Positions 4,601 to 64,000 of a stretch of DNA of 64,000 nucleotides are shown piece after piece. The DNA is from Apostichopus japonicus (taxonomy: Eukaryota > Echinodermata > Holothuroidea > Aspidochirotida > Stichopodidae). The position numbers and the translations under genes are program-made. Within the stretch, counting starts at the first letter, position 1; every line of letters starts with the position of its first letter. The notes beneath the pieces were generated by a model. The model had not been told where the DNA came from and ran no database searches. It saw nothing but the letters and a program-made list of their open reading frames with translations. Location of the stretch: positions 4,496,001 through 4,560,000 of the forward strand of contig NC_092570.1 in the NCBI RefSeq assembly GCF_037975245.1, in the 5' to 3' direction.

Positions 4601-7600
4601 CTTACTCTGCTTCCTTCGCCTGAGATTGTCTTTCATACTCTTTAATCTTTTCGTTGAGGTCGATGATGGTTTGTGCGTTCTAGAAAGAGGAAGGTCAAGT
4701 TTTTGTCAATCTTTTAAGTTGGTTTGTGAAAGAGGAATAACTGATGAAGCATTACAGTACTTTGTAAAGGCAACATTTGCACTTTTGGATTCACTCAATC
4801 TGCAAAGTGGCCAAAGTTTTGTCAAAAGAGTACCTTGTGACCGATTGTGTGATTATATAGTACACTGAGTACCAAAAAATAAAACATTGTTTAAAGACCA
4901 TCACAATGGAATGCATATAATTTGTACTTATATCTATGTATGTATTCACACACATATATATATTTTGTTTTGTTTTTCTTTTCTTTTCTTTTCTTTCTTT
5001 TCTTTCTTCGGGGAGTCTTCCACACTGTTAAGCTTTTAAGCTTTATGGAAGACTTCCTCCACTTTGTACTTTTGTGGCAAACAAATAAATAAATAAAAAC
5101 AATATAATCAGGCTTCTAAAACCAGAGCGGCCAAATAGAAATAGAATGAACTAAGGGTATAAAAGAAACAAAGTTCAAAGATATTGATGAATAATTTCAT
5201 ATTTCAGTTCTGTCATACCACATTTATGCGACACCTTCATTTAATCAAATCATACACATTCAGATAAAAGTATTGAAACCTGTGACTGATTAGCCAGTTG
5301 ATAACTGTTGATTACACTATATAGATAAAGTCACTCGGATAGTTAATGCTATGTTACCTCAGTTATATACACTCTGCCACATTGTGGGCATTGTGACTCT
5401 CGCAGATTAAGGAAATGAACAGGAAGTAATAGAATATATGATCTATCTTTGACACAGGTCAGATATATGTACTACAATGAAAATGACGCCAAATATTCAA
5501 CAATATATCAAGGCTGAAAAGGTACAAACTGTATACATGCACAACTAATATCTAAAAACATCTACTGAAAATTACCAAGCGTTAACAGTACTAGGTTAAA
5601 ACAAAGACTTCAACTGAAACTATTTATCAGCATAGGAGATAATGTTCATAAGTTGACTATTCCTCATCAGGAGATAAGAAAAGGTTGTTCTAAATATACT
5701 CCCTGATCCCTCACTCCTTCCTTCCTCCACACCTCCACCCCTCCCTCCCTCCCTCCCTCCCTCCAACCCCATCCACTTCTTCTCCCCTTTCACACAACGA
5801 ATATGGCATAATTGCTACCTGTCCTTTATTTCGATGTAGATCAGTCAATTCTTCTTGCAGCTTGAAAACCTTTCTCTCCAAGTCAGGTCCCACCTTGTTG
5901 CTAGTTTGAGTGACAGGACCGATTCTGGATGTTCCAAAAGTTATGAGAACAGCAAGGGATAAAACGAAGAATGAATGCGTAATGAAAATATCAAGGTTAA
6001 AAGAGAGATACTTTACTGTATTTACGGTGAAAACACTCGATCAGACAATTTATTTTATAAATATATCTTCAGACTATCAAAATATCTTTACAATCAACCC
6101 AAAGATATGATTTTACAGTATTGCTTCATGAATACACCATTCCATAAAATAATACAGCAGACATTGCAACAGTTATTAATATTTCACACTATCTCATCAG
6201 TATTTGCCAATTTATATTTGTAGTTAAGTAGTGAAACTAAAACATAATTTTGGAAACGATTTGAAAGTAACAAAATTAGAGAAAGTATTACATAATGAAA
6301 TACTGCTGTCATACAGAAGGTGTGTCCCAATTTGCCAAAATACAAGTTAAATATAAAAATTGTTTCCACACTTACCCTGAATCAGCCCTTATCTGCAATT
6401 CCAACTTTTCTTTCCTCAAATTGTCCACTAAATTAAGGAGACTCTGATTTTCTTTTTCTTGCTGTTCCAGTTGAATGCTTATCCTTTCGTCTGTAAAATT
6501 GATGGCAGAAAAATGACAAATTTCTTAGGATTGACTGGCAATGATATCACTTGTGGTGAAGAGCAAATGGATATGGGAAATGTCTATATGTATGGCATCA
6601 ACTGTCAATGCATCCGTCCAAGTCTTTGGCTTCTTGTAGGTCATTCACGATGTCATCCCAGGTCTACATGGAAATTACAACAGTCTCCGATCTCCAAGCT
6701 CTGATCTGCTTATTTTCAGATGCACCTGGATAAATTATTTGACATCAAATAGTGTGAATGTCTTAAAACTGACCATATTTATCACATAAATTGGTAAAAA
6801 CATGTACCTATCAGTTTTATCTTCACAAATTTCTATTACCTGTACAGTCAAATTTATTGTTTTAATGAAAACAAAATTTGATAAGTTGGAATATATAATC
6901 TAATAATATTAATCTAACACTGCAGTTGTGGGGAATAAGGCCCCTTTTGTTTCATTAGTAATATGGTGCTAAAACAAGCCTTTCATTGTTTCTCTTTAGC
7001 TCTGTCATCAGTAGACTAGTCACCAGCCTTGGCAACATATGCATTTACTACTAAATAAGCAGTGTCAACATATTATGTCATAGCAGTGCCAGTTGACCAG
7101 TGGCAACAGTTTCTTTAAAGGCATTAAAGACTCGTGCACAAAGAAACCTCTCATGCCGGTAATCTGACCTAGTTTCAAATAAGGTGTAACAGACATGTTA
7201 GACACCACCATCCATCCCAGAAAATACACACACAGCTTGCTACCGTCGGTAATTAGACACTAGTGTACAGTCAATACATGCAGCTACTGTCAATACCCAC
7301 AACACAGTGTACATAGCCGGGATGGACATCTCAGGTCTAGATAAAAGATAACAAGGTATCATGTTTCATTATTGTCTGCATTTTGTAGAGACAAGAAAAA
7401 ACTTCACTTGCAATCAACGGAAAGTTAACTTTTTCAGATGGCGGCACGCAGGGCGAGTCTTTAAGTTAAGAAAGGATGTTGCCATCTCCTGATTGGGCAG
7501 ATTAGTTGCTACCCTGTACCCCTGTTTTAGTCCTCTCTATGATTGTTCTTCCTGTTAAATGAACAAGCTGAGCACCCCTACCTGCCAAGCAGTGACGACC

Positions 7601-14968: not shown

Positions 14969-15444
14969 TTCTAGAGGTACCCTGATTTTAAATTTGATTT
15001 TTGATTTGATGATTCTTTATAAATGCATCATCAAGTTGGTGAAGTAACACTTAAGCAGAAGATATATCTAGCCTAAAAGTTACTTTCTTCCTTCGTTGTC
15101 ATATCTTTGAAAGTACTTTTGCTTAATAAGAAACTCTATCCTGTATTGTATATTTGACACAGCATATATCCATGCCAATTTTGAATGCCAAATGCAAGAC
15201 ACAATTATCTGGTATATAATTTTGACCCGTTGTCAAATGAAGTCACACAGTTTTCCAACAATAAAAGGACAGAAAATATGTTTAGCTTTTGATCATAATA
15301 CAAGGATTTTAGTCTTTTTCTTGATTATAGTTTCAGGAAAAGAGGTAATGGCTCCATATTGTAATTTACAGACACTGTTACAAATATGAATTTTGCTGTT
15401 TATCCAATGTTTCCTCATGGAGAATGTTACTACTGTCTAGTGTT

Positions 15445-15802
15445 TTTTACACTCTCTTTTTCAAGAAGAAACGTCTCATGCCGGTAATCTGACCTAGTTT
15501 TGAATGAGGTGTAACAGAAGTGTTAGACACCACCATCGATTCCAGAAAATACACACAGCTTGCTACCGTCAGTAATTAGACACTAGTGTACAGTCAATAC
15601 ATACAGCTACGGTCAATACCCACAACACATTGCACTTAGCAGCGATGGACATCTCAGGTCTAGATGAAAGATAACAAGGTAGCACGTTTCATTACTGTCT
15701 GCATTTCGTAGCGACAAGCAGAAAACTTCACTTACAAGCAACGGAAAGTTAACTTTTTCAGAGCGCGGCACGCGGTTTGGGGCAAGTCTTCAAAGCCTTT
15801 AA
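15445..15802 (+). mobile_element. TTAA-flanked MITE, copy 2
   Basis: Matches copy 1 from AAGAAACGTCTCATGCCGG through the right terminus GGCAAGTCTTCAAAGCCTTTAA. The left 20-30 bases are diverged and its TTAA is lost. Intergenic. Confidence 0.85.
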
Positions 15803-17326: not shown

Positions 17327-17519
17327 AGTACATTTTAAGAAAGTCACCCAGGAAAGAACCTGGGCACGAAAAGCGAACAACTAAACGACTGATCCGCTCT
17401 TAAACCGTCCTGTTGCATCGAGACTGTGACTGTGCGATCATCGTCAGGTGTATATCACGATTCCCCTCGAAAGGGAACAGATATTACACATGATCTTAGC
17501 CAAAAGGCCGATTAGTGGT
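17327..17519 (-). repeat. U2-headed repeat, copy A
   Basis: Read on the minus strand from 17519, the first ~45 bases align without gaps to the 5' end of U2 snRNA, including GGCCTTTTGGCTAAGATCA and ATCTGTTC. The branch-point pairing word GTAGTA of U2 reads GTAATA here. The remaining ~150 bases are not U2. They hold a stem TTCCCTTTCGAGGGGAA, a shared block CAGTCACAGTCTCGATGC, GAGCGGATCAGTC, and a 3' hairpin GTGCCCAGG..CCTGGGTGAC. Copies B and C share all of this. The arrangement resembles SINEs with snRNA-derived heads (SINEU, known from crocodilians); a U2-derived structured RNA is the alternative. Confidence 0.75.
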
Positions 17520-18473
17520 GACATTGGAAATTTTTCGAAATGTTTGACTACAAAAGACTACAACTGACACAATTACACTCACTGGTGATTAACATAAACA
17601 TTAAAATAACAACATTGATAGTTTATATCCTCGAAAAATCTAACTTAACTTAAAGTGAACTGTAATTTTTATCCCTCTACAAAATTTCGAACCAAATTTT
17701 AGGCAATGTTACTACCATGACCTTCAATGTATCATCCAAAAGGAAATGTATGTATTCCCACTTCACCGAGCTTTTCTACCGAAAAGGCAATCGAAATTTC
17801 GCATAACTAGCTTCTTCCCTAGGTTCGTGTGATCCGAACTGACTCGACAACATAGGCTTTCTATACCGACAACAAAACTAGCTAAGTCCTGTATTGCTCA
17901 TGATGCCAGCAGAACATCGATGTCCAAAAACGATGCATGAGTCTCCTGGGTAAATCATCAATGTTTTAATTTGATTGTGTTGTCTGTAATTATCTAGTAA
18001 TCAAAAGTTTATATGATAACTTACTGTTCATGTACATTTCGCAACATGTTTCAGAAGTCTATAATATATGCGAATATCGGACGCTCCACCCACAAGCGTC
18101 CCATCCACAGGCGTGTGTATTCTCCATTCATATTATGGAATGTATAATTGATGAGTTGGATAATGTACGATTCAATTTGACGTTTCTTTAATCTTTTATA
18201 TTATTGTTCAATAAATTGGGATGGAAAATTCCGACTAAGACTCGAAAACAGAATAGTAATGACTGATGTAGGCCGAAGAAATAATTACTCAATTTCACCC
18301 CCACATAGAAATGAGTTTGCCCTTCTTGAGGCGTTTTGAAAGACCTACAACAAAATAATAATCTACGTATCAATTTATATCGGTAGGGTCCACATCAACC
18401 AATGTTTGTAAAGTCAGATTGTATATATAAGTTTAAGTACTGTTTTGAGTATGGTAATTTTATAAAATTTTCA

Positions 18474-18572
18474 TATTGACGCTTTTTTTAACCGATGAGA
18501 GAACATTTTCCGTTCAATATCTTCTGTGTGAATTCGCAGAAGTACATGAACCAAATCGCACCATGACAAAGC
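18474..18572 (+). promoter_or_regulatory. Proximal promoter of U1 gene 1
   Basis: The 99 bases before U1 gene 1 are almost identical to those before gene 2 and should contain the proximal sequence element used by RNA polymerase II snRNA promoters. The exact element cannot be delimited from two copies this similar. Confidence 0.55.
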
Positions 18573-18737
18573 ATACTTACCTGGCGCAGGGATTTCCGTG
18601 ATCATGACGGCGGAGTCCCTAGGGTGAGGCCTGTCCATTGCACTTTCGGATGGGTTGACCCTTACGATTCTCTCAAACGTAGAGAACTCGGGCGTATAAT
18701 TTCTGGTAGTGGAGGACTGCGTTCGCGCTATCCTCCT
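18573..18737 (+). ncRNA. U1: U1 spliceosomal snRNA, gene 1
   Basis: RNA of the U1 snRNP, which recognises 5' splice sites. It begins ATACTTACCTG, the splice-site-pairing end. Stem-loop I keeps the U1-70K loop core GATCATGA. Stem-loop II keeps ATTGCAC, the U1A-binding loop. The Sm site is AATTTCTGG, and the last stem contains GGACTGCGTTCGCGCT. The length of about 165 matches metazoan U1. A 3'-box-like stretch (ACGAAAAGACA) follows about 15 bases later. Compared with human U1, two positions at the top of stem-loop I become a G-C pair. Confidence 0.96.
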
Positions 18738-18847
18738 TATAAACTAAATGCAACGAAAAGACAATTAAGTGTAGTAAAGTACTCTTTGCCTGGCCCAGTC
18801 ACCACACAATGTCGCAGGGAGGTTTTCAGATCTCGTCATGCAACCGA

Positions 18848-19322
18848 TCACATGTATAATCATCCTTCCCTTCCCCCCGCCTCCGCCCCCTCCAAATATG
18901 TCCAATATTGAAACACTCAGTGCGCATGCGTGCGAGTCGTGCACTACGTAAGCTGCCGATGCTTTGTAGGACACGGAATACAAGTACACTGATGTTTGTT
19001 AATCAAAATCTAGTATCATGTATATCTTATACCTTTCTGCCCCTCCATCAATTCCCTGACTCTTAGAAGGACTACAAAGTTATCAGCAAGCTTCTCCCTG
19101 TTTTGAGACATGCTCTGTACAGTATAATAATATTAGTCACGTGACCCACTTGAACGAAATTCCGGTGTGCTGTTGTTAAAGTCTAGCCGTATAGCACTGT
19201 TAAATACCTGATCGAAACGGCTATTTACATAACTGTCAGCCTTAGCAGTGTAGCCAGTGACATGACAGCTGATAAATATTGCTTAAAATATTGTGTTATT
19301 GTTCGGCAAGAAATATTTGAGC
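18848..19322. other. Spacer between the two U1 genes
   Basis: Not shared between the units. It contains the perfect palindrome GTCACGTGAC at 19136-19145, whose core CACGTG is an upstream activating site reported for sea urchin snRNA genes. Here it lies about 280 bases upstream of U1 gene 2, farther than usual. Confidence 0.4.
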
Positions 19323-19421
19323 TATTGACGCTTTTTTTAACCAATGAGAGAACATTTTCCGTTCAATATCTTCTGTGTGAATTCGCAGCAGTACATGAAC
19401 CAAATCGCACAATGTCAAAGC
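19323..19421 (+). promoter_or_regulatory. Proximal promoter of U1 gene 2
   Basis: Counterpart of 18474-18572. It differs at a few positions (for example CCAATGAG for CCGATGAG). Confidence 0.55.
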
Positions 19422-19586
19422 ATACTTACCTGGCGCAGGGATTTCCGTGATCATGACGGTGGAGTCCCTAGGGTGAGGCCTGTCCATTGCACTTTCGGAT
19501 GGGTTGACCCTTACGATTCTCTCAAACGTAGAGAACTCGGGCGTATAATTTCTGGTAGTGGAGGACTGCGTTCGCGCTATCCTCCT
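19422..19586 (+). ncRNA. U1: U1 spliceosomal snRNA, gene 2
   Basis: Second U1 gene with the same 5' end, stem-loops, Sm site and 3' end as gene 1. Within the mature RNA I see one difference, T at 19460 where gene 1 has C at 18611, on the 3' side of stem-loop I. Both copies look functional. Confidence 0.96.
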
Positions 19587-19954
19587 TATAAACTAAATGC
19601 AACGAAAAGACAATTAAGTGTAGTAAAGTACTCTTTGCCTGGCCCAGTCACCACACAATGTCGCAGGGAGGTTTTCAGATCTCGTCATGCAACCGAGATG
19701 AAAAGACCAGTAATTCAGATACAATCATCGTTCGATTAGCTGCCTCGAATACAAATTTTCGACAATTGAGTAACGTTCATGAGAACTGCAGCAAAAGCTT
19801 TCAGACAAACGGCGTGCAATGTTTTCGAATGAAACGAATTTGAATTTGAGTTATAGGTCACGACCAACTAAAGTGAAAAAAAAAAACTTGTGCGTGACTA
19901 ATCTTTTATAGATACTATAGACATTTCTGTGAATTGCTGAGTATCTTTTGGAAT

Positions 19955-20150
19955 CGTGTGGCTTTCATGTTACCAGTGTAATACTAATGTACCCCTCTTA
20001 GGGGAATCGTGATACACAGCCGAAGATGCTCACACGGTCACAGTCTCGGTGCAAGAGGACGGGGGTTGAGAGCGGATCAGTCATTCGGTTGTTTGGTGTG
20101 TCGTGCCCAGGTTCTTCATCTGTGACTTCTTCAAGTTAAAAAATACCATG
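19955..20150 (+). repeat. U2-headed repeat, copy B
   Basis: Head strongly diverged (TGGCTTTCATG..GTGTAATA remains), tail well kept: CACAGTCTCGGTGC, GAGCGGATCAGTCATT and GTGCCCAGGTTCTT. The internal stem persists as CCCCT..AGGGG. Starts about 370 bases beyond the end of U1 gene 2, opposite in strand to copy A. Confidence 0.7.
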
Positions 20151-21866
20151 GTAGTAATTCTTTTGGTATATCGTAATGTACAAGAAGAAAATACCGATGA
20201 AAAAGAGGACAACATTGGCGGTGATACAACCACAATTAGGTGTCAGCATTTAAAATCTTGTGAAAGGGAAAACGATTGTTTTGTATGATATGTGTTCTCC
20301 CTTTTGTATTCTGTTTTGGAATGTGTCACAAGTTGTAAACGTCAAAGAATAATGTTATAATGACGTAAGCATTTGATAATACAATTTACTGAGTCGATTG
20401 TCAAATTGTTCTCCCATCAGGATTAGTACAAAAGCAAATCAAAAAACAACCGTGCAACTCTCGGATAAGTGTATAGTCCAAAGTCCTTTCGGAGAAGAGC
20501 GTGCATTTTTTTTATAAAGTGAGAAGAACATTCTGGACTTCCAAGGTTTAGTGCGCTTCATCATCTCACAGGAATCAGCCGATGAAAGTGACGCTTTTGT
20601 GATCTCGGATGGTCGGTACTTAATAATAAATAGCGCCCACTATTATGTTGGTCTCATTCGGAGTCATATATATATGTATATTATGGCTCTGGTTTCATTT
20701 TGTGCAGTATAGTGCACGCGACATTGGCGTGGTTGTTTTCTCGGCTGCCCATAGATGCATGGTGAGAGGTAAGCAAGTATGCCATTGTGAAGAAAACAAG
20801 TGTAAACCTTCAAACACTGAGGGATCGCTAATATATTGTCAAGCTTTCGTAAGTGTCCTAAAGAAAGGTTTAGGTTTGGGGTGGATCTTTCGCCCTGAAA
20901 TGCAGAGAGGAGGCGTTCATATCTGATGTTTGGTCGCTCTAGACTATACCCGAGTTTTACTCTCAGTTTTCTTGTTAGGAATTACGGTATTTAGGTATAA
21001 AATTTCATTTTTTTCCTTCTTCGGGTTCCCACTGGAAAAATTCCCACAACCCAAAAGAAATGAGAAGATATTTGCCACTTCCAATATGATGGAATATTTG
21101 CATATATTTGACAAATAATGACAAATAATTGACAAATAATTGTCAAATAATGTGTTACAGCTTGTGTAATTTATATATATATAAGCTGGGCATGCAAAAT
21201 TAATAAGAATATGACTAATATAACATAACTGAAAATACTTAAATAATCAACTCTTGAAGCACTTACACTTAAAAGAAGATTTATATTGAATTTAGTTGAT
21301 AAATACTTACAAAAGAAAACAATAAGTCATTGAAAAGTTATCTGATGTACTTTGTACTAAAATACACATGAATACCGGTACATAATGATTTAATTGAAGC
21401 TGACGATACGCTGATTAGCTTTTCCGCGTGGCAGTCGTTTTGTGTAATAACACATTTTGCATGTTTCGTTAATAATCTACAGTCAGCGGATTGTGGAAAT
21501 ATAGTGTCCCAAAAATTCGAGAATTTTCAGTCAGCATATTTAGGCCTATATAGTGTGAACAATCTGTCCACACAATCTTTTCAAGCACACACTCGCTCTA
21601 TACACTCCTATGCACACACACACAAACTTTAAATCATCGAGACACTATATTAGCCTTAAAAAAACACAACATTTATACCTTCTCATTGGTTACCGATCGT
21701 CAATCTGCGATGTGACGACTACGTATGTATGTATATATAAAGGTGTGCATTGTTCCTAAATATGATAAAACGAACAATTTGCCAGCTAAAATCAAACTTA
21801 AGCTCTTGTCTGGAAATAATATAGAGAGTAGCCCATCGAAAATGAACGTGGCAGCAATTTCAAGCA
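20151..21866. other. Intergenic DNA, nothing recognised
   Basis: No supported exon or RNA gene. A short tandem of TGACAAATAAT units lies at about 21107-21150. Confidence 0.4.
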
Positions 21867-22140
21867 ATTTCAAGCTACCACTATATGGGTGAACCACAAT
21901 TGCATGGTGACGTTTCAATATGTGTAGCACTGCCCAGAAAACAGGCAAATTAAGATTTATTGTCTGTTTGGCTTGCTACTTTAGGGAGTTGTTATAACAA
22001 CTACCTGGTTACTGTCAGATACTTCAAGCTAACACTAGTATGGGGGAACCACACTTGCTTGGTGACCTTTCAATATTTGTAGCACTGTCCAGAAAACAGG
22101 CAAATTAAGATGTATCGTCTGTTTGGCTTGTTTCTGTCAC
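21867..22140. repeat. Tandem duplication, ~155-bp period, overlapping a gene's 3' end
   Basis: The segment from TTCAAGCTA to GTTTGGCTTG occurs at about 21867-21985 and again at 22021-22140. The right copy includes the last codons and stop of the minus-strand membrane-protein gene; the left copy lies in its 3' UTR and carries a diverged version of the same codons. Confidence 0.8.
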
Positions 22141-23894
22141 GTCTGGAAAATCCGTCTGTGTTCCAGCAGACGGTTGAAGACCATGATCATCTATATATGC
22201 GGGATTTACTGCAGACAGCTCAGCGTCGTCAGTTTTAGCGCCATTTTCTTCGTTCTTAGTTGAGGGCGCTTCTTTTTTAACAGGCATATGTACTTCGCCT
22301 ATGTAAGATTTGTACAACCCGTAGAGAACGATGAGGGACACGAAAGCAATCATGACCCCGTTTGATATCCACATTCCAGTATAGTTAAAATCATCTGTGA
22401 AGAACATGAAAATAATAATAATAATCGTCATCATCACCATCATCATAAGTCCCATATAATAATAGTAATAATAATGGTAATAATCATAAATTTAAGTTGT
22501 AAGGTATTAGTTAAAAAGTTCACAAAACTCCTAAATGTAACACGGAAGATGTAGATTGCATAAAAAACAGTGAAGTTCATTATAACTTCTGGAGCCTGTA
22601 TAGCAGGCGATATGGGTGGCGTTATCTACGTATATGAGACTGTACGAGTATGGCAAGCCATGTGGGACAAACACTGTATAATATATCCGCGTATTAATTG
22701 GAATTTATACGCGTATTAATTGGAATATATACGCGTATATATTATTAGCCAATCATATGGCTTAAATATATCCGCGTATTAATTCGAATATATACACGTA
22801 TTAATTCGAATATATACACGTATTAAATAAAATACATATGGGGATTAAATCCAATAAATGCACGGATTAATTAGAATATACACGAAAAAACATTTCCGCT
22901 CTTGCTGTGTACATATACCAACGATAAATGTTTTGGCGGGATCGCGAGATTGCTTCAAAAAGCGAAACTTTATACATGTACAACACAAGTATATTTGAAT
23001 TAATACGCGTATATATTCGAATTAATACGCGGATATATTATGCGGTGTTTGTCCCACATGGCTTGCCATATACGAGACACGATATTATACGTGATCAATG
23101 TATTCTAATGATGGTTAACAGACATGCCTAGTGCGTCCGGTATGGGTTCTCAATAGGCTGACCGCAAAATATTTTCGGTTCAGACCGCGAAAAATAATCG
23201 TCCCTTAAACCATGGAGTCCGTTTTTACCTCCATGCTTAAACGTTGCACCTATCGGGTATGCGGCCTTAACTTGTGAACTTTTCGTTCTCCCTGACCCTT
23301 TATTCCAACGTTTCTGACCCGCATATAGTATAATCGCTCCGTACACACGCAACCAAAGACGTTCACAGTGAAACGCACATTTTGGGTTTTTCGATAACCG
23401 GTTAACTGTCCAAAAACGTAACAGGTTTACAATAAAAAGAATTAACCGATAAACCTTCAAACTGGAACCTGTTAATCCCGTGTGTAACGAGAGAGCATGC
23501 ACAGTAATTGGTACTTTTTTTCTCTCTCCCTCTCTGAAATTGTCGCCTCAGAAAAATAGTGAGAGAGTGTCGCCCCTCCCTCCCCCTTCCCCTCCCCAAT
23601 GCTAATGTGTGTATACATAACAGTCGTACACTAATAGAACCGTTTTATCATAATCTTTCAGTCTTGGTTTACATGTTGAAAAGTCGACGATCTTGATCGT
23701 CAATTCAGAGGAGACAGTAAGAGCCCCTTCACCCACCCCCTACCACCAGCCCATCCAGACCCTCTCCCATACTTACACTCGGCTCTTTTGGACCGCTGGT
23801 GCTCGGCTGAGTTATCTCCGTGGCCACTTTGGAAATTATTCATGAAGCATGCCACAGCAACAAGAATTGTCGTAAGCTGATGTCCCCACTCCAT
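22105..23894 (-). CDS. Small type I membrane protein, function unknown
   Basis: Two minus-strand exons, 23894-23777 and 22394-22105, join in phase 1 to give 135 residues. Residues 1-24 form a signal peptide (hydrophobic TTILVAVACF). RSKR at 34-37 is a good furin site. If it is cut, only about ten residues (AEYDFNYTGM) remain outside, with an N-glycosylation site at N43. The membrane segment is about 48-67 (ISNGVMIAFVSLIVLYGLY). The acidic cytosolic tail has an NPAY sorting/PTB motif at 103-106 and a TQT dynein-light-chain-type motif at 118-120. The layout recalls FXYD proteins (F42-N-Y44, then G52 at the FXYD glycine position), but the motif aspartate is replaced by threonine. MAP17/SMIM24-like proteins are another possibility. 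An ATG at 23975 would add 27 residues; I chose 23894 because it places the signal peptide at the start. Confidence 0.6.
22649..23070. mobile_element. Fold-back MITE with 6-bp target duplication
   Basis: 422-bp element ending TATGGCAAGCC / GGCTTGCCATA, flanked by exact TACGAG at 22643-22648 and 23071-23076. The terminal inverted repeats extend about 70 bases, through TGTGGGACAAACAC and ATATATCCGCGTATTAATT. Inside, ~20-bp units around CGTATTAATTCGAATATATA recur in tandem. The unique centre is about 100 bases. It lies in the intron of the small membrane-protein gene. No transposase. Confidence 0.85.
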
Positions 23895-24884
23895 TGTTTC
23901 ATTTAAACAGTTCCTTGAATACAACACCCTTGGTGAACCAATTTTCAAACTGGTTACACTAAAATTCACTGACACAATCTGGTTTATAGGTTTCCAAAAT
24001 AAAAGTATATGTCTATTTCGACTACGATATCTGCACCTGCCTTTAGTTGAAGAAAGTTTTTGTCACGAAAGTTGTCGATATGTTAGCTAAAGCTGGTATA
24101 TTTTGTTTAAAAGATGAAAGTAAACATTGGTCCGTTGAGGAAATCCTGACCTATATTTGGGTCACACTCGACTGAACGATGGAAAATGGAAAAACTTCTG
24201 TATTGCTGAATGCCTATAAAAACTAACTGATTATCAACGACGTTGTGCACGAATTGCGATCCTGAATTCCTCCCTTGTAATATTATTGTAAAAACCAGGT
24301 CGATCTAATTGTTGTGATTCTCTGTAAAACAAAGAGAAACGGAAGCAGAAAAAAACAATACTTTTTAATGTCACAAAGCCGTATGTTGTCGGGGAGTACC
24401 TGAAGATCTGTTACTCCGATTTTCTGCAAATATCATCAACAATCCGACATGTAAACACACACATACGCACACACACAAATCAGTGGCTTGTCCAGTAGAC
24501 ATATACGAAGAGGTGAAATTTCAGTACTGAGTGCAAAGTCTTGCTTCTTTGCTATTGTTAAAGCTATTCTCCATGAAGCTGACAGGGTCAAAGATCCATT
24601 ATGTTAAGCCTAGCGCTCGCCCCATCTAGAGAGCACGTCTGACTTGAATAGACTGACGATTGCGGTTTATTCAGTGATAGGTGTTTGCATAAGGGTTATA
24701 TAGTACAATTTAAACTTCAAATAAAGGGGTACTCGAATAGAACGGAGAAGTATTTTGAGACACTTCTGCAACTTACAGTTATAGGGGGCCCCTAACGGTG
24801 GACTATACGCATTCTATAACAAGCTGAGTAAGTAGAAAATGTATCATAAATGCAGGCCATTAGTGCGGAAACCAGGGTGGAAAC
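23895..24884. other. Upstream of the membrane-protein gene, no gene recognised
   Basis: Should include the minus-strand promoter just above 23894. No clear TATA element at a useful distance. Confidence 0.35.
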
Positions 24885-25088
24885 TACAAACCTTGGCCTT
24901 TTAGCTAAGATCATGCGCAGTATTTGTTCCCATTCGATGGGAATGGTGATAAACATGCACCCGACGATGATCACACAGTCACAGTCTCGATGCAAAGGGA
25001 CTAAGGTTGAGAGCGGATCAGTCGTTCGGTAGTTTGGTTTTCGTGCCCAGGTTCTTTCCTGCAGGGTGACTTTTCTTAAAAAGTACCA
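24885..25088 (+). repeat. U2-headed repeat, copy C
   Basis: Head GGCCTTTTAGCTAAGATCA and GTATTTGTTC matches U2 with a few changes. The tail keeps CACAGTCACAGTCTCGATGC, GAGCGGATCAGTCGTT and GTGCCCAGGTTCTTTCCTG. The internal stem reads TTCCCATTCGATGGGAA: compared with copy A, one pair changed on both sides so pairing is kept. AACCTTGGC occurs at 24889-24897 and again at 25088-25096, a possible target duplication. Confidence 0.75.
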
Positions 25089-25096
25089 ACCTTGGC

Positions 25097-32100: not shown

Positions 32101-35100
32101 GCAGTTGATAGCATATTATTGGCTGATTTGATTGCAAATTGGCTGATCTAATTGCAATTAATTGCACATTGGCAGATTTGATTGCAACATTGACCGATTT
32201 GGTTGCACATTTGACTGATTTGATTGCAGTTGATTGCACATGTGACCGATTTGATTGCAGTTGATTGCATATTGGCAGTTTTGATTGCAGCATTGACTGG
32301 TTTAGTTGTAGTTGATTGCACACACTCATTAACCAAAACTAAGGAAACAACCACTGTGTGACAGGGGAAAAAATTACTCTCAGAGTCCAACGAAAACATT
32401 GTTTCCCGATCATTTTGTTTTTGGGGAGTGGGAGAACCCACCCTTCCCCTGGTCACAACCGACCATAATAGCTTGGTATCTCATTTTGGACAGTCACATT
32501 GCAAAATATTTTTTTTAATAACCTGGAATCTCTCCTTATCCTTGTACCCGGTTGGGTCTGGTTTTTGTAAGCACTGTGCATTAACAATCTTCATACAACT
32601 CGTCAAAGAATATGAAATAATCAAATTGTTAAGGTCCCTTTTTCCAATGTCTAATATAGATACGAAAATTTGAGGTGGAAATATTTATCCATTGAGTTCT
32701 ATTACTTGTAATGCTACTTTTTGAAAACTTTTTTTGCTTTTCCTTATAAATTAATGCACCTATTCCCGAAATTATCTCTGTGAGTTGGGCAGTCATTTTC
32801 TCTCTGTTTCTGACGATGCCTGCCCTATTTTGACAAACGTACGTTACTCTAATATCTTCTGCGATCTATTAATGTTCCCCATTTCTCGCTATCGTCTCCA
32901 GAGTGTCGTTGACGATTGGATCGAGTCCTACAAGGCGAATCGGGAAGAAGCCCTCATCAACCTGGTTAACTTCATCATCCATAGCTCGGGATGTAAGGGC
33001 ACCGTTACCTTGGAGATGTACTCGCAGATGGAACATAGCGACATCATCAGGAAGATGACAGAGGAATTTGATGAGGTCTGAAACGAGAAACAATTAAAAA
33101 TTACAAAAAGATTTAAAACTAAAAAACATAGCCTGTTTGCTGGTAACCAGAAGGACATTAAAGCAATCCTTTCTGTGTTTTCTCTAGCACTTGATCAAGC
33201 TAGGACCCTCCCTTCTAGATTTGGCCACAGAGTAAATAATAATATAAGAATTGTAAAGCGCTTTTATAGAGTTAAAAAAAAAAACTGCTCAGAAGCGCTG
33301 CAGGAGCAAAGTACCCAAAATGAACACAACAGTTATCAAACAAATGGATACGCATTCATGAATAAGAACGTCTTGAGTTCCTCAGGAAAGTTGACACATG
33401 CTGGATTGTTTTCAGATGTAAGGGGAGACTGTTCCAGAGCTGTGGAGCTGATCTAGCAAAGCAATGTTTCCCCATAGGTTAATTACAGCGGCTTTTAGTG
33501 GTCTATTCCATTCTAACCAGTTTGTCCTCTTCATGCAATTGGGCACATGAGTTATCACGTTGAATACAGAGATCTGAAATCTACAAACTTTTTTATTATT
33601 TATATTAATACTAGACTAGTACAGCTTAGTCTGACAATTCTGCATTTTTCAAAGTGGGATTTTGGTGAGTCTGCTCGTTTGCCGATGATTTATTTTTAAA
33701 CGGATAAGAAGTTCCAAGATTTACAAGTAATGTAATATACATGGAGTTGCTTAAATTGCACGAAAGATTTTCAAAAACTGATTAAGTTGGCTCTTCCTGT
33801 TAATAAACAGAAAGGGGCAATGATCCTGGATAGGTGACAATAGATTTATAAAAAAAAATTAAATAGATTCTGTTTACATTGAGTTCTAGACCAATTTCCA
33901 GTAGATCCGTCACCATCAAGACAGTTTCGATAAGCGTTTTCTGTGACCAATTTGTATCGTCTTGAAAACAATTTGAAGTGTCTCGTCTAAATTCATCCAT
34001 TGCGTCCATTCTCTTCTTCTTCAGGAGAGTGGAGACTATCCTCTCATCATGGCTGGTCCCATCTACAAGAAATTCCGTTCAAATTTCTGCGAGTTTGTGA
34101 CTCTCCTCGTGAGGCAATGCCAGTACAGCATCCTGTACGATCAGTTCATGGTCGACAACCTCATCTCAATGTTGACGGGACTCAGCGATTCCCAGGTCAG
34201 GGCTTTTAGACATACCAGCACACTTGCAGGTCAGTACACAACAACAATTATCTCCGTCTGCAATAAATTTCCTTCTTTTGGCAGAGAAATACGCTTTGGC
34301 AGATGTTCTAAGGCCATCAAAAGTTCTAAGAGGGTTACGTCAAGTGATATCTCTGCCTAAGAGATAGAAAATATATATTTGGAAATACCAGAGCCATTGA
34401 GAAAGTCTAGAAATAAATTTGATAGCTTCATTCAACCTTAAGCAAATGTAGTATAGTCTGTACGGTGTGTTCTTCAACTGTTTAAGATTAATTTCTTTAC
34501 TCACATGGCCATAAATCACCTCCCACCAGAAGGCCTCAGGGTAAACTAGTACAGTTCCTTGCAGCGATACCAATATTTTTTTCTCGTCAACCAGAAACTT
34601 GCAGTAGTATTAATATCTACTAAAATATATTTACTTCTCAAAAGCAGCATTTTGCTCCGATTCTATTTTATCAAACCTTCCGAGTATCAATTGAGATTGG
34701 AACTGGGTTAAAACCAATAACCTCTACAAGTTTTGTCATCAAAATGGACACTTTTTAGTGACATTTGTGAAATTTTGACCGATCGTATTCTGGATGAATG
34801 ATGGTCTTTCTTCGGTCGTCCCTGCAGCAATGAAGCTGATGACCGCTCTGGTCAACGTAGCTCTGAACCTTAGCGTGAACTTGGACAACACTCAGCGCCA
34901 GCACGACGCAGAGAGAGCGAAACAGACCTCCAAGAGAGCCAGCGAAAGGATAGAGATGCTGCTGGCCAAGAGGCAGGAGATCCTGGAGAATACAGAGGAA
35001 GTACAACAGATGATGAATAACATCTTCAGAGGTATCTTCGTTCACAGATACAGGTGAGTAAGAGCAGTGTTTTGACTCTTCTATGTATGTGTAAACAGAT

Positions 35101-38100
35101 CGAAAGAGAGATAAACGACCGATATTTCGTTTATGATGTTACGTTAAGGACAGTTTACGTAAGTCATTCGCCTCTTCTCGCTATACTATTGCACGTCCAT
35201 CAACTGTTTATGAATGTGGTTCATGCTCTCTGAAATTGTGAGTGGTAGGACAAAATTTGACAATTCCACACCGTATCTTAGAGTTGGTATCTTAGACATG
35301 AATCTGTAAGTACTCCTGGCATAGTTTATGACAAAATGTCTCCCGACATCACATTTCTTTTACAGGTTACCAAACCATCTAAAATTGGTTGTTGCTGTGA
35401 ACCAATTCCAGTTGTTAGGCAGTTCAGTTTACGATCTCCTCTCTATCCAAATGATCACCTAAGCTTTTATCCTATCATATCTTTTAGTGATCCATAGTTA
35501 AGGACAGGTCTCTTGTAACACCCTTTCTTTACAAAATTTTCAAGGTAAAAATATTCCCAAAACTTCATCTCACTGCTGCTGCTGTTGCTGTTTAATATAC
35601 GCCATCCTTTGTTTTTATCTCGATCTCAATTTTCATCGTGATTTAGAGATACTCAGCCAGAGATCCGAGCAATCTGCATGGGAGAGATCGGTCTCTGGAT
35701 GAAAAACTACAGCGAAATGTTCCTCAGCGACAGCTACTTGAAGTACGTTGGATGGACTCTTCATGACAAAGTAAGCCGACATTGATGCAATTCTCTGTAC
35801 GTTGCCAGCCCTACTATATATTTATATTTAAACTTTGACTATGATCTAGTCTTTTGTGTATTTTTTTTAAACTATTTTACTATATACATAATTCTGAATT
35901 TGTTTTGGACTATGTGCGTTTAGAGCTTTTTAATTTTTTGTTTAATTTTTTTTATGATCGTTTAGTACGGGTGTTTTTTATATTGTTGCTTTAGGCTTTT
36001 ACATTTTATGCTTTATTGGTTCTATATATTTAATATTTAGGTTTTTGTTACTATTTTTTTTTTTTAGTTTTACATTTGTAAAGCGCTTTGAGCAGCTTTT
36101 CTGATTATGCGCTATATAAATATAAAATATTATTATTACTATCATAGCTGAATCCCTTTGCATTAATGAGATAAACTTTGCTATTGGGGAAGTGTTATGC
36201 CTAGTCATTATATGCTTAATTAGTGGAATTTTGAAAATTATTTGATTTTGCTTTTAGCATTCTCCTTTTCCCACAATTTCCCTAAATAAACTATAATATT
36301 ATTAGCATTAAGGAAGGACATTCACTATACTATTGGCCTAATAACATAACACATTTCAAAATATCACTGAACAGAATTTTTCTCATTCGAATTTTTTTTC
36401 CCTGCAATCCCTCTCTCATACTTCTCAAATTAATTTTCCCCAAATTTTTGTATGATTGTCTTTAATTGGTCATCGTTTAATGCTGTGAAAAATATTGAAA
36501 AACAAAATGGGTTTTGAAATATGAAAACTTCAAGATGTTGCTATTTTATTGTCCTTGAAAAGTTGTCAAACTCTGATTCTTTTAATCCAGTTTTTCTTTG
36601 CCCACTGTTTCACCGTTTCTCTCAGATGGGTGAGGTACGTTTGAAGTGTCTGGAGGACTTGGAGGGGTTGTACTGCACCCCTGAGCTGGTAGCCAAACTA
36701 GAGCTCTTCACCAACAGGTTTAAGGACCGTATTGTCTCCATGACCCTGGATAAAGAGACGGATGTGGCCGTCAGAGCCATCAAAGTTTGCACCCTGGTCC
36801 TCAAGTAAGATATCGCCCTCCTCTGGATAAAGATACAATGGAAAGAGATTTTGTAATAACAAAACCATTGATTATTGAAGCTGCATTAGGGATCATCTGA
36901 GAATAGGAAGGGCAAAACAATTGTGGAAATTGTTCACAAGCAGGAAAATATTATCTGTTGGGTAATATTAGTCAAAGTTAATAACACTATAGAAGTCCTT
37001 TCTTTGGTACCAAAACAGAAAGTAGTTTGATGAAATTTTGGCAATTGTTACAGTAACCCTAACCCTAATGCACCTTGTTGGTGGATTTTTTGGCAAAAGT
37101 AATCTTTGTCTGTTCAAAAAACAGAAGTTGCTTATGTAAGGGGAGGAAAAAGGAAAAAACAAACACAGTTAAGGTTATCTGAGGCTTAGGTTGGTAAATT
37201 TTATAAGATTTATTAGAATTGTTTGACAGCAAAAGGTCATCCATCTGTTGATGAATGTAAGAGATTTATGTTTGAACATATTCTAAAATATCTATCTATA
37301 TAATTTCCCTGACTCATTAAATTCATACCACTGGTATTAAAATATTTTGTAAGATTTTGTTTCAAACTCCACTTTGCTTCCCTTAGAATCCTTTGTGAAT
37401 AACACCCCTTTTATTATTTTGTCATTTTCGTACCCCTACATATTCTAAAATATCTATCTATATAATTTCCCTGACTCATTAAATTCATACCACTGGTATT
37501 AAAATATTTTGTAAGATTTTGTTTCAAACTCCACTTTGCTTCCCTTAGAATCCTTTGTGAATAACACCCCTTTTATTATTTTGTCATTTTTGTACCCCTA
37601 ATCTACTCACTGATATACACCACTGGCAGTAATAATAATCCTAGCAATTTGCTCACATTTCCCTGTTTCCTTTCATTTTATTAAAAACGATCCTCTATGA
37701 AATAACACTCTTTGATTATTTCTGTATTTTTAAAATCATATACCCAACGCCTTTTTCTTTGCATCTCTGTCGTATCTTCAGGTTCAACGAAGACATCCTG
37801 ACGGCAGAAGACTGCGAGAACGTCTACCAGCTGGTCTACGCGTCAAGTCGGGCCGTGGCCCAGGCCGCTGGGGACTTCTTAAACGAGCGGCTCTTCAAGA
37901 GGGAAGAGACGGAGGCCGACAAGATAAAGAGGACCAAAAGGAGGAGTCTAAACTCGCCTCTCATCCGAGATTTAGTCCAATTCTTCATCGAGAGCGAGGT
38001 AATACCAGAAAAAGATCCGTTCAGTTTTGAGTAGAAAACTTGAAATACATTATTTATTTATTTTTGACAATTTTTTTAACCCTTATAAAAAAGTCCTTCC

Positions 38101-41100
38101 TGTTATGTGTTACGGGTGGGTGTGTTTTCATTTGTTTGGCGTTCGATCAGCATTAACCACTCTGAATTTAACCTGATGGTGACACTTGGATGGAGCCCAA
38201 CAAATTCTGAAAAGAAATTAGTACTAAAGCTTATGCTTACTGCATTAACAGTTTGTGAGAAACTAGCTTTAGAATCTGACCCTAACTCCCAGTATTTTTG
38301 AAGAGAGATAGAATGGTTTGTGATGAAATAATTCCACTTTTGTCCAGACTATGAACAATGTTATGTAAGACTCCTCTCTTGTGACGTTGTTCCCCAAAAA
38401 CATCCAAACCATTGCGATTTCATGATGATGCAGGCACAGCAATATTTCTTCTTCTTTTTTCTCATTTGATTTTTATCTACTAATCTATTTCTTCATTCAT
38501 TTGTTTGTTTGTTTGTTTTATTTGTTTTGTAATCACTCTCCGATTTGATTTGATAAATTTGTGGTTTCTCTTCAGTTACATGAACACGCCGCCTATTTGG
38601 TGGATGCTCTGTGGGACGTCAACGACATGGTCAAGGACTGGGACTGTATGACCGAGTTACTGCTGGAGGAACCGGGCAGAGGAGAAGAGGGTAAGATCAA
38701 TCGATTCTAATCAATCAATCACTGCCGACAGATAGTACCGCTGCCGATTGAAACACTAAAACCAAACACGCCAGAAATGAAACGAAGAGTGAGGCATGAA
38801 AAGAAAGTAGAAAAGGCGGACATATTTTTGACTTCCCTTTGGACCCACTTCATCACTTGTCACTTTCAGGTCTGCCTGTGCAACATCATTTATTAATGAG
38901 GTCTTGAAGATTTGAAGCAATATATATTGTTGCTGATGAATCAGAATGGCATAAAACACTTGTTAAAATTTGTTTAGAAATTCATTTGAGGGAATCTGAA
39001 GCTAGAGATATATCTCCATCAGCTTTGCTAGTAAGATTGATAATTTGAATGCATATATGCTTTAAAGCCACCATTGTGTATTCAGTCTCGACAGTATAAG
39101 CAATCACAATGATGTACTCTTTTTGCCATCATTTTGGCCTATTCATAGAGACCCATAAACGAAAACCTCAAGCCAAAACAAAGGTGTCCTGTTGTTTTGC
39201 TAGTGTTTTGATCGAGATGAAACCATTAATCAAATGCAAAAACATTTGTAGAGTGAAGGATCAGTTAGTTCGTGTTTATGATGTTATGCTTAGTGGGGCT
39301 TTAATCTAATTTTATATTGCTGATGTGAATTCCTCTTCTGCAGCACTCGATGACCGTCAGGAGACTGCCTTGATAGAGATTATGGTCAGCGCGGTCAGAC
39401 AAGCGGCCAAAGGTCACCCTCCGGTCGGTAGAGGTCACAGCAAGAGGGTAGGGCTACACAAACCTTTCAAATTGAAACTCAAATCGGCTCTAGTTTATGT
39501 ATTTTCCTTTCCCTCTAGAAAATCCTTCTGTGTTTCAAAGGTTTATCTTCCGTCCCTTGGGCTCTCACCAAAATTTTGATGGTATTGGGGAGCAATTTTC
39601 ATTTGAGTGGTGGGACAGAAGCTTGTGCACATTAATGAGAAGACCAAAGGTCAAAGTTCATGAGGTTTTCGCAGTCAAACATTTCAAACAGTAAGTTAGA
39701 TTGTAGATGGATACGCCTTTGACCAACTATTGATTGTTTTTTAAAGTTATGGTGTACTCCGGTACTCCCTATGGTTGTGACATTAGCCTGCCCCAGGATT
39801 AACCCTCTCAAATTTTCTGTCACACTTGGTAGATCAATTCCAGTTATGTCTCTCTTGCACTGTGTAGGTTTTTGATAAGACTATATATTTGATGGTATCT
39901 ATTTTCAGTTGCTGACCAGTAAAGAGAAAAAACAAGTGGTCGATGACCGGGTCAGGTTGACCGAACATTTCGTGGTTAAGATTCCAGAGCTATTGAGCAA
40001 GGTAAGAGTGCTCTTTGAGACAACGGTGGAACTGGAAGAGAGTTGTTGGAACTGCCAAACAAATCCTAGCTTTGAAATCAGTTCAAACTCCTCGATAATT
40101 TGATATGTATCATCGATATATTAATCAGGGATGTACCCCGATTAATGCATCCCTTGGGTTTGCTTTTGTCAGTTAACAGCATCTGCCGTATTTAACAGTA
40201 TAAACTTCTCTCGTCAATCTGAACTAACCTCAAGTAAAAAATTTAAATCGCTAGTTTTCTATCTGATAATGTCACAGCAGATTGGGTTTGAAACCTTGAT
40301 AACTATTTGTTATTTTTCAAAAGAAACAAGCATAAACACTTTCTTTTATATTGTGCCATTTGTTGATAGCAATTCACCAAACTTAGGTGCCTTATCATGA
40401 AATCATTTTTATGACTGAGGTTATATTCATTTGTGGACTGTTAAGGCCCAGCAACTAATTTTTATCTTTTTAGGGAAAAGATTATTATCATGTAGACTTG
40501 ATAAAATAGACACAATACTCTAAAGTTCTCCAGTCTGTTGGGAAGTAGAATATGGTTTGAAAAAATAAAACCAGCTGCTGAAGTTGGTCAAAAATCCACT
40601 AATCTGCACTTTTTTTTGCATTTTGCGCTTTATAAATTCCTATTATTATTTTTTATTATTATTATTAATCTGGCCCTACTGGATGGCCATACCTGGTAGC
40701 TTCCTAAAAGAGTTTTCATTTTGTACTAATTTTTTTGTTAGGATATCAAACCTTTGAATTATGTTCGATTTCAGTATAATACAGATTACGAGAAAGTTGC
40801 CAACCTCCTGGAGATTCCACAGCATTTCCACGTGGAGGTCTACACCACCAGCCGATTGGAGAAACATCTCGACGCACTCCTGCTACAGATGAGGGATATT
40901 GTGGAGAAACACACAGAAACAGAGGTAAGGAGGCTTTAAAATATATGGGCAGTGGCTTAGGGTGGTAGTTTTCAAACTCGATTCATAAACTGCTCCCCTT
41001 TCCTTTTCAGCTTAGTAACGCAAGGAACGCCTTACCTCGTAGAGGAATTACTTTATACTTTCTCTCACACCAGAAAATGTAAAAGTAATTTCTTTGAAAG

Positions 41101-43437
41101 ATAAATTGTTCCTTCATAAGAAGCCCCTCCCCATCACCTACTCTCTCTCCCACCTACCCTCTCCCTCACCTACCCTCTCCCTCACCCACCCTCTCTCTCA
41201 CCTACCCTCTACCCCACCCCACCTATCCTCTCCCTCACCTACCCTCTCTCGCACGTACCCTCTTCCACACGTACCCTCTCCCTCACCTTCCCTCTCCCCC
41301 ACCTACCCTCTCCCCGACATACCTAATCTCCCTCACCCATCCTCTACCTCATCTACTCTCTACCTACCCTCTACCCCACCTACCCACCCCTACCCACCAT
41401 CTCCCTCACCTACCCTCTCCCCCACGTACCTTCTCCCTCACCTTTCCCCGTTCATCACCTACCCTCTCCCCACCTACCTTCTCCCTCACCTACCCTCTTC
41501 ATCACCTTGTACGTTACATCATTTAAAACAACCAAAATTGTCTAGCAAATCTGTGACATATGTTGTACATAGAAGATGTTGCCTTCACTTTACTTCACTA
41601 CCATTTATGTGACATTGACTATCAACTCTCCCCCCCCCCCCCCAGGTATTGGATGCTTGTGCAAAGACCTACGAGTGTCTGATGGGGAACCAATACAGTA
41701 CCACACCGAGAACAGAAGTGGCCCGGAATACACTCATCGACAACCTCTGTGAGAAACTCAAAAGGAGCTGCGCGTTCTTCCAACATGTGAGGAATGCTTC
41801 TTTCTTGAATGCTGAATGTTTCTTAAATGTTTCCAAAGTGAAATACGTTTCATAACTTATCTTCTACTGTCATGTCTTTGTTGCAATTCCTTTGAATCAA
41901 AATTTTGTTGATGTTAACCAAACATAGGAAAGATGTTCCAAGTAGCTGTTTGTGGCCGTATTGTAAACTCCTCAATCATGCAGATAACCCTGAGCACAAA
42001 ATGTGTTGCATACTTCCACAAATGTTACAACAGACGTTTGGTATGCACCAACATTCTGCCTGGACTATCTAAAACACTTTGCCTAGCATATGTTACATAT
42101 ACTTGAGTGGAGGGGCTGTAAAAAAAAAGAAATATTTTTGCAAGGTAAAAATTGGTTTAACCAAGAGAAATATATTTTGTGAATAAACATTGTTTGAAAA
42201 AAGATCCTCGCTGGACTAAACCATTCAAACTCCCCCAAACATTTGTTTTTAGAATCACATTTGATTTGATGTCTTTCATTATTGTTTTGTTAGAGTGGGA
42301 ACCCAACGGAAGAAGAAGTCTACGCCCTATCGTCAAGCATGAAGAGGATTGTAGCATTTTACAGGTGAGTGTTTTGACAATGAAAAACATCAGGTGCGGA
42401 GTGGATGGTGGAACTTCTATATTGATAAGTGAATATTCATCAATTGGTCCTCAATGAAAGCAGTAGTAATAGAACATAAAGTCACCTTATCTACGGGTGG
42501 AGAAAGATGATACAGCTGGTTGGGTTGGTACATATTGAATGCTACATGCAAGGGATTAATATCCATTGGCAATGCCCCTTGTTAAGTAATTATAATTCGC
42601 TTAGTTTTGATCTGTAATCACTATCTCTAATTAGTTGGCTTAGTTTTGATCTGTAATCACTGTCTCTAACTAGTTCGCTTAGTTTTGATCTGTAATCACT
42701 GTCTCTAACTTAAGTAAAAATCCTGTATTTTTTGGGGAGTCTTTATGGGTGGACGGGAAACGAGAGGGGGAGGGAGGAGGAGGAGGGTGGTAGAAAAGAG
42801 AAAGATGTGTGTCTTTATTATTTTTAAATGATCCGGATTTCAGATCACTGTAAATGGCTTTGTCATTATTTCCTCCTCTTGGGATGCAGGAGGAGAGGTA
42901 GGCCCGAGATAAAGAGTCGAGTCTTTAATAATTTACGAACCATTCAGGTCTTGATTTAATTCCTTTCAGCTGCCACGACATGACCGCCTGGGAGATCTGG
43001 GGGTTATTATTTGCTTTGGTCAAGAGGACAGGAGAGAGAGGGGTGCTGCCGGACGTTATCTTTGGCCACGCCATAGCCTGCTGTCACTATGCAAACATGT
43101 GGATGTTGACAAGGCTAGACGAGACTGAACCTGATCAGGTAAAAAAGCAATCAAGATTTTGTAGGATCTCATTCCAGAATGATTATTATGTCTCACAAGG
43201 TACAAAATCGACTAGATTTTCCAACTATTCGTTTCAACAGATATGATTAAAAACAATAAATGAGGAAAACAAGCATGCTTTATTGGCAATTATTATGATT
43301 ATTTACCAGATTTATATAGCCCTCTTTTCATGCTTAAGCATGTTCAAGACACTTTACAATGACAACAAAATGACAAAACCCTTAAAATATGAATATGAAA
43401 ATAAAATGGACACAGCTTAAAAATTAATATGAATATA

Positions 43438-53916: not shown

Positions 53917-55132
53917 TAGAAAGAAAATAGAAAAATTGTTTTTCTTTGATCGTCTGTTATTTCTCTGTTTGCATTATCCACCAGCACTAACCTTCCTATC
54001 AACAATAACAACAAGATCGGACTTATGGGACACTTAACTTGTCAATAATTTTACATCATGATTTTTAACAGGTTTCCTAATTTTTCCAGTCATAAAAATA
54101 AAAGTACAACATAGGCTGGAAAAGGAAGGAAGAAAGACTCTGTATAGTCCAAACGTTGTTTTAAAAGTTGTATTTCTGTTGGCAATTATAAACTTCTACT
54201 GTATAAAGTTAATGAATTCTTGTACATGAAATGCATAAAGTATATGAATAAAAATACAAATAATTTACACACACAAAAAAAAATTCCAGAATGTAGACAT
54301 ACCGTTCCATCACTCATCAAAGAAAAATAGGTCACGGGAAGTCAAAGATATTACCAAATATTAATGAGATATCAAAAAGGGATAAAAAAGAAATGATAGA
54401 ATTGTTGAATATAATACAGAGAGAATAAAAGGCAACAAGAGAAAAGGAGTACTGATAAATTAGTTTATATGGAAATGGGTCATAGGATAATAAAGTAAAA
54501 TACTTAGAAGTAGTGTACTCAAAAATAGTATGAATTAATTTACACACGTCATGATTGTTATTTTGGTAAATGAACTTATAGGTTACTATGTGATACCAAA
54601 ACACATCATTTATGCAATCATAAAAAAAATTAAAACATAGGGCTTGACAGGAAGGCTATTAATTTGAAGAAATTAAATTTTGCTGTACCCTTGATGATTA
54701 TTAGTGCATCAGAACAAGACTGAAATGGCTTTGTTTAAGATTGTTTCCAGTATGCCGTGTAACTTTTGGGACAGCTGGGATAGTTTTAATACATGCAGGC
54801 ATTACGGAAGCTTTTATCCTCAGCCACCTAATGCCACATTGTAAACACAAAATGATGTCACACCATAATAAAGACAAAATCAAAACTAATATAATATAAT
54901 CAATGTAATTTATAGCTATGCTATGTAATATGCTTGTGTAACAATAAATATAACTGTCTACATAACAGGGTGGGTAATATACATGATTTACAATTATATT
55001 CTATATAAGTGTATTACGTTATATGGACATGTCATTCCGTAATTTTTTTCCCTTTCATATATTAGATTATGATATGGTATATTAGGCAAAGTGTTAATCA
55101 AGTGACTAGCAGTGCATCACCCATTAATTTAC
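53917..55132. other. Intergenic DNA between STAG and ABCC5
   Basis: AT-rich, no supported gene or repeat. Confidence 0.4.
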
Positions 55133-55477
55133 TTAAAGGGTGTGAAGACTCGTGCAAAAAGAAACGTCTAATGCCGTTAATCTGACCTAGTGTTAGACAC
55201 CACCATCGATCCCAGAAAATACACACACAGCTTGCTACTGTCGGTAATTGCCACTAGTGTACAGTCAGTACATACAGCTGCGGTCAATACCCACAGCACA
55301 GTGTATAAACGATACAGCGATGGACATCTCAGGTCCAGCTAAAGATAACAAGGTATCACGATTCATTACTGTCTGCATTTTGTAGCGACACGAACAAACC
55401 GTCACTTGCAAGCAACAGAAAGTTAACTTTTTTCAGATGGCTGCACGCGGTTTGTGGCGAGTCTACAATGCCTTTAA
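55133..55477 (+). mobile_element. TTAA-flanked MITE, copy 3
   Basis: 345 bp, TTAA on both sides. Starts AGGGTGTGAAGACTCGTG and ends GGCGAGTCTACAATGCCT. It shares variants with copy 4 (GTCTAATGCCG, CAGCTGCGGTCAATACCCAC), so the two form a subfamily. Confidence 0.9.

Positions 55478-56874: not shown

Positions 56875-64000
<7,126 letters not shown>

Follow-up and report, generated by a model that had tools for sequence, protein, structure and literature searches.

A 64-kb window of the Apostichopus japonicus genome (the whole stretch of DNA analyzed here, 64,000 nucleotides; contig NC_092570.1, positions 4,496,001 to 4,560,000) contains a repeat unit of about 190 bases in three mutually homologous copies, A, B, and C, and in two of these copies the unit opens with a piece of the 5′ end of U2 small nuclear RNA (snRNA). 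We favor, at a probability of about 0.6, the reading that a single short non-autonomous element, about 190 bases long and built from a U2 head (nucleotides, nt, about 9–45 of U2) and a tail, was retroposed independently into three sites to give A, B, and C. The repeat is best read as a small, old retroposed family and as a candidate member, by design, of the SINEU kind, that is, of short interspersed elements (SINEs) with snRNA heads, a named class (PMC4455052, PMC5753468, with a mention in PMC8010984).

The repeat and its U2-like head

The copies and the recognizable heads lie at the following positions of the window:

17327..17519, minus strand: copy A, U2-headed repeat (nhmmer E 3e-62)
17475..17511, minus strand: U2-like head of copy A, U2 nt 9–45, 35/37 identical
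19955..20150 (start and end approximate), plus strand: copy B, tail clear and U2 nt 9–28 undetectable (profile and pairwise alignment)
24885..25088, plus strand: copy C, U2-headed repeat (nhmmer E 3e-65)
24892..24929, plus strand: U2-like head of copy C, U2 nt 8–45, 32/38 identical

The first-pass annotation of this DNA, made from the letters alone, had described a repeat shared by these three stretches, and both the relationship and the positions held. Pairwise local scores (A-B 141, A-C 223, B-C 149) were far above the maximum of 26–29 reached over 300 dinucleotide shuffles for each pair, with identical columns in the local alignments numbering 161/193 for A-C, 127/161 for A-B, and 125/155 for B-C. 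A profile of the three copies run against the 64-kb window recovered exactly A, B, and C (E values of 3e-65, 3e-62, and 2e-57), the next match being at E = 6, and profile and alignments placed the copies within a few bases of the coordinates first given. Counted by alignment columns, divergence among the copies is 17–21%, and they look old and inactive. CpG columns make up 18/184 of the consensus and carry 3/14 of the changes in A, 4/32 in B, and 1/10 in C, counts that are too few to judge CpG decay.

The heads of A and C align to the Rfam U2 consensus without gaps, scoring 64 and 46, respectively, against a maximum of 26 over 1000 shuffles. An ungapped match of about 45 bases to the U2 5′ end had been proposed; the absence of gaps was borne out, and the length came down to 37–38 bases starting at about nt 8–9, with U2 nt 1–7 outside the alignment in both copies. 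When the Rfam U2 model was run over an 8.2-kb stretch, it scored A at 30.4 bits (E 0.0037) and C at 21.3 bits (E 0.57), both below the U2 gathering score (46) because only the U2 5′ end matches and the rest is absent; a whole-window Rfam scan at E ≤ 1 listed A alone as U2 (E 0.029). Copy B behaved differently: it scored 13 against U2, under the shuffle maximum, the score of the 17 bases that replace U2 nt 9–28 was reached by 1983 of 5000 self-shuffles, and its similarity to A starts at about U2 nt 31. A U2 head was thus detected in two of the three copies. No complete U2 gene was found by Rfam within the 64-kb window, and true U2 genes are unlikely to bear the tail of this repeat.

Copies A and C depart from U2 at the same base, and at U2 nt 30 both heads have T where U2 has A, within a part that is written in capitals in the Rfam consensus. 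Together with the tail of about 150 bases common to the copies, this shared junction and variant indicate that A and C, at least, are copies of one U2-tail fusion. The proposal that a U2 5′ end had been fused to other sequence and then amplified is well supported for A and C; copy B shows no detectable head. What emerges is a short composite with constant junction and ends, in which the junction and the U2 variant are common to A and C, the tail and its end occur in all three, and the 5′ end of B is unclear.

The tail itself matched no Rfam family at E ≤ 1 in either the 8.2-kb or the whole-window scan. Relatives were sought with five patterns in the IMG/VR viral contigs and with two of these five in prokaryote genomes, and no match to the tail emerged from these collections, which should contain little animal DNA, so that the negative carries little weight: one 16-base pattern returned 19 stretches and the remaining patterns none. 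A profile run over all 19 stretches gave a single match, at E 0.095, which we regard as chance. When the letters of the repeat were sought in the text of published papers, one unrelated paper came back.

Flanks, ends, and candidate target-site duplications

Descent of the three copies from one segmental duplication had been raised as an alternative at the outset, and the 600-base flanks speak to it directly. Five of the six flank comparisons scored below the random 95% level of 29; the sixth (A-B, 3′ side) scored 29, equal to that level, at non-corresponding positions. The flanks are thus unrelated, which argues against an origin of the three copies in a single duplicated segment. Copy A lies in the opposite orientation to B and C, and the tails of all three copies end near TTAAAA..TAC.

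Direct repeats that may represent target-site duplications border two of the copies:

19940..19957, plus strand: 5′ repeat at copy B, imperfect and gapped
20153..20174, plus strand: 3′ repeat at copy B
24885..24897, plus strand: 5′ repeat at copy C, 12/13, overlapping the head by several bases
25084..25096, plus strand: 3′ repeat at copy C

Each copy was assessed by three measures under three window settings against 20,000 random pseudo-insertions. The candidate at B, AGTA..TCTTTTGG..ATCGT, gave p values of 0.007–0.011 for the gapped measure, 0.012–0.025 for the ungapped measure, and 0.009–0.031 for the longest exact match. The candidate at C, TACMAACCTTGGC, gave p values of 0.004–0.010 in the two settings (6/9 tests) in which the element's first six bases are taken in. 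Insertions made by long interspersed elements (LINEs) commonly show microhomology at their 5′ junction, and the overlap of the C repeat with the head could be of this kind. Target-site duplications at B and C are thus moderately supported, and insertion by retroposition is the best reading of the copies, with support from the direct repeats that is likewise moderate.

Several observations weigh against separate retroposition of a U2-headed element. Copy B has no detectable U2 head, so that the fusion rests on two copies, and apart from a stretch of four to six A, no poly(A) or simple repeat is visible at the 3′ end. Copy A lacks a direct repeat (p 0.74–0.98), and the repeats at B and C are individually modest (p 0.004–0.03); that of C gives p values of 0.14–0.74 (3/9 tests) once the first bases of the element are omitted, because it overlaps the head. 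The tail is unmatched to any LINE in the collections searched, which should contain little animal DNA. Finally, the three copies fall within 7.8 kb and are somewhat clustered, with a chance P of about 0.04.

Origin, transcription, and competing explanations

The fusion may have arisen when a LINE reverse transcriptase that was copying an existing SINE-like RNA switched template onto U2 RNA, or alternatively when such an enzyme copied a ligated or read-through U2-tail RNA. Target-primed reverse transcription would then have propagated the resulting chimera. Because the promoters of U1 and U2 genes are external, snRNA-headed SINEs raise the question of how transcription is kept after the element has moved.

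No internal promoter of the RNA polymerase III (Pol III) type was recognized in the three copies. ARAGORN found no tRNA, and Rfam gave no match of the tRNA, 5S, or 7SL type at E ≤ 1. The best match to a Pol III B box has four mismatches in all three copies, a level equaled by 280 and bettered by 77 of 400 random stretches; A-box-like matches with one mismatch occur in all three copies, yet also in most random stretches. A tRNA-like T arm suspected by eye in a 3′ hairpin was set aside, being unsupported by ARAGORN and Rfam. TTTT acts as a Pol III stop, and it occurs inside the U2 head of both A and C. With no such promoter recognized and with TTTT in these heads, the RNA of the element would not have come from a tRNA-type Pol III promoter; its likeliest source would be a few master copies at an RNA polymerase II (Pol II) promoter, either snRNA-type or read-through.

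A 2015 study by Kojima is said to have described crocodilian SINEU families with recurrent addition of U1 or U2 heads, a LINE partner of the Tx1 type, and a target preference. The repeat resembles SINEU in being a short element with a U2 piece in front, joined to other sequence and amplified; it differs in that those families are reportedly crocodilian and mobilized by Tx1-type LINEs, and the likeness is one of design. If it is of the SINEU type, the repeat would be another case of a known class and not a new principle, elements of this sort being known in crocodilians. SINEs with snRNA heads are an accepted class (PMC7245038, PMC8010984). No snRNA-headed SINE outside crocodilians, a U2-headed invertebrate family included, was recognized among the literature matches listed, which does not prove absence. 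Two candidate sources were discarded as irrelevant to U2: PMC9115989 deals with SINEUP, and PMC10886601 with long terminal repeat (LTR) elements carrying tRNA or 5S pieces. A second, unrelated case in another animal group, if true, would mean that the class arises repeatedly, would open its transcription to comparative test, and would make splicing RNAs raw material for new mobile elements; if genome copies are few, the repeat is merely an old chimeric pseudogene group.

Three other known systems invite comparison. LINE-1 insertions joined to snRNAs (U6, U3, U2, and others) have been attributed to ligation or template switching, and the U6/LINE-1 chimeras are independent events, usually without further propagation (PMC13174262). 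The snRNA on the 5′ side of a retroposed sequence is common to these chimeras and to our repeat, whereas here one fusion recurs in copies. Tailless U2 retropseudogenes lack the 3′ part of U2, and those in the study concerned were chosen for having target-site duplications and no oligo(A) (PMC5322556); they share with our repeat a U2 without its 3′ part, but consist of U2 alone, without the tail of about 150 bases that our copies have in common. The LINEs Keno and Utopia insert into U2 genes, U2 being the 3′ flank in 44 Utopia families and the 5′ flank in 11, and in Phytophthora the U2 sequence downstream of Utopia runs from nt 39 (PMC4640811). The region of nt 39–45 is thus a junction between U2 and mobile DNA there as in our repeat; those elements, in contrast, are LINEs within U2 genes, and here U2 stands on the 5′ side only, in a unit of about 190 bases.

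These comparisons frame the alternatives to separate insertions of one element. Reverse transcription of a U2-tail fusion RNA might have happened only a few times and never have yielded an element that sustained itself at high copy number, which would suit a repeat with only three copies in the window and no recognized Pol III promoter; snRNA/LINE-1 chimeras form repeatedly as separate events (PMC13174262), and 3′-truncated U2 retropseudogenes are a known product (PMC5322556). However, the common junction, variant, and tail of about 150 bases show copying of the fusion itself, and three copies per 64 kb would be a high density for so few events. We hold such chimeric retrocopies to be unlikely, though deserving of some weight. 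The end of the head near nt 45 makes it conceivable that the master arose from an insertion into a U2 gene. An independent, non-crocodilian SINE lineage begun in this way, in which a U2 gene broken near nt 45 by the insertion became a Pol II snRNA-type master and its capped U2-tail RNAs were pasted by a LINE, is a rather unlikely scenario. It is quite improbable that the copies belong to a larger mobile element with a U2 piece in it, whether the end of a LINE or a DNA transposon, perhaps one that inserts into U2 like Keno and Utopia. The U2 target of those LINEs and the Phytophthora U2 sequence that begins at nt 39 (PMC4640811) lend this idea some substance, and a head ending near nt 45 could be explained by insertion accompanied by a short duplication of the target. 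The copies nevertheless terminate near the same points at both ends, their flanks are unrelated, Rfam finds no U2 sequence past the tail, and a Pfam search, which covered 9 of the 14 open frames of at least 120 amino acids in the window, found no reverse transcriptase among them.

A pair of U1 genes, not part of the repeat, lies nearby:

18573..18737, plus strand: U1 snRNA gene (Rfam RF00003, 151.4 bits)
19422..19586, plus strand: second copy of the U1 snRNA gene (Rfam RF00003, 148.8 bits)

Both genes are complete and sit between copies A and B. The repeat had been described as lying around the U1 genes; the genes are real, as their Rfam scores attest, and the clustering, with its chance P of about 0.04, is weak. 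The link between the repeat and the U1 genes is probably incidental. If one chimeric pseudogene had been duplicated locally, in tandem or as a segment, three copies could come to lie inside 7.8 kb, yet the non-homologous 600-base flanks, the inverted copy, and the candidate direct repeats at two insertions render this highly improbable, and segmental duplication is largely ruled out by the flanks.

A functional family of U2-derived small RNAs encoded beside the U1 genes is likewise unlikely, and we give it very little credence. In its favor, conservation with B included is highest in the middle of the tail (58/71 identical between A and B, versus 20/35 in a head segment that takes in a few bases preceding the head), and the alignment fold allows a long helix within the tail. 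Between A and C, on the other hand, the U2 part (31/37, counted by eye) is kept about as well as the middle of the tail (61/71). The tail is thus clearly better conserved than the head segment when B is taken into account, and is not singled out between A and C. Single-sequence folding was not clearly better than in shuffles (z -1.62, -1.28, and 0.00), and the covariation term of the alignment fold was unfavorable (+1.46). Two-sided changes occur in 8 of its 60 pairs: five have their first column below 68, in the flank or 5′ end, two lie in the head and second hairpin (80-123 and 98-104), and the only one in the long helix of the tail (128-194) is at CpG sites. Compensatory changes in three sequences were not counted as support for structure. 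An Sm motif was unmatched in all three copies, and the 150 bases upstream of the copies scored 15, 17, and 15 against the U1 upstream region, where the random 95% level is 22. A pattern for the snRNA 3′ box was absent at the copies and also missed both U1 genes, and is hence uninformative. The two U1 genes are, moreover, much closer to each other in sequence than the repeat copies are, and B lacks a detectable head.

The first-pass annotation had left the choice between a SINE and a functional U2-derived RNA. The unrelated flanks, the candidate target duplications at two of the three copies, the similar ends, the divergence of 17–21% beside U1 units that are 369/374 identical, the lack of an Sm site, and an upstream region unlike that of U1 together favor the SINE side without proving it.

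Other features of the window

The U1 genes belong to a duplicated unit (18474–18847 and 19323–19696) in which 369/374 columns are identical, about 100 upstream bases included, a degree of identity that suggests a recent duplication or gene conversion. Between copies B and C, a 97-base direct repeat (21884–21980 and 22039–22135) is 90% identical, with its members 155 bases apart from start to start. An AT-rich stretch at 22649–23070 combines 81-base inverted arms (93% complementary) with a 22-base periodic array; its outer parts consist of GGCAAGCCATGTGGGACAAACAC and the complement, and it resembles a foldback element.

Another repeat, of about 340–380 bases, occurs in five copies (7098–7478, 15440–15802, 55131–55476, and 56168–56544 on the plus strand, and 63603–63940 on the minus strand). 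In some copies its ends read CTTTAAAGGC...GCCTTTAA, and from its letters it resembles a non-autonomous DNA transposon bounded by short inverted ends.

A gene encoding a cohesin subunit is indicated by a STAG-domain exon at 33977–34357 (Pfam E 5.5e-25), which by itself marks the DNA as eukaryotic and probably animal, and further frames, for example 37645–38031, which has no Pfam match, resemble by eye additional exons of this gene. Two 162-base copies lie head to tail at 37276–37599 and are 99% identical, and a 16-base tandem array of the CTACCCTCTCCCTCAC type occupies 41094–41505 in the region of the STAG-domain gene.

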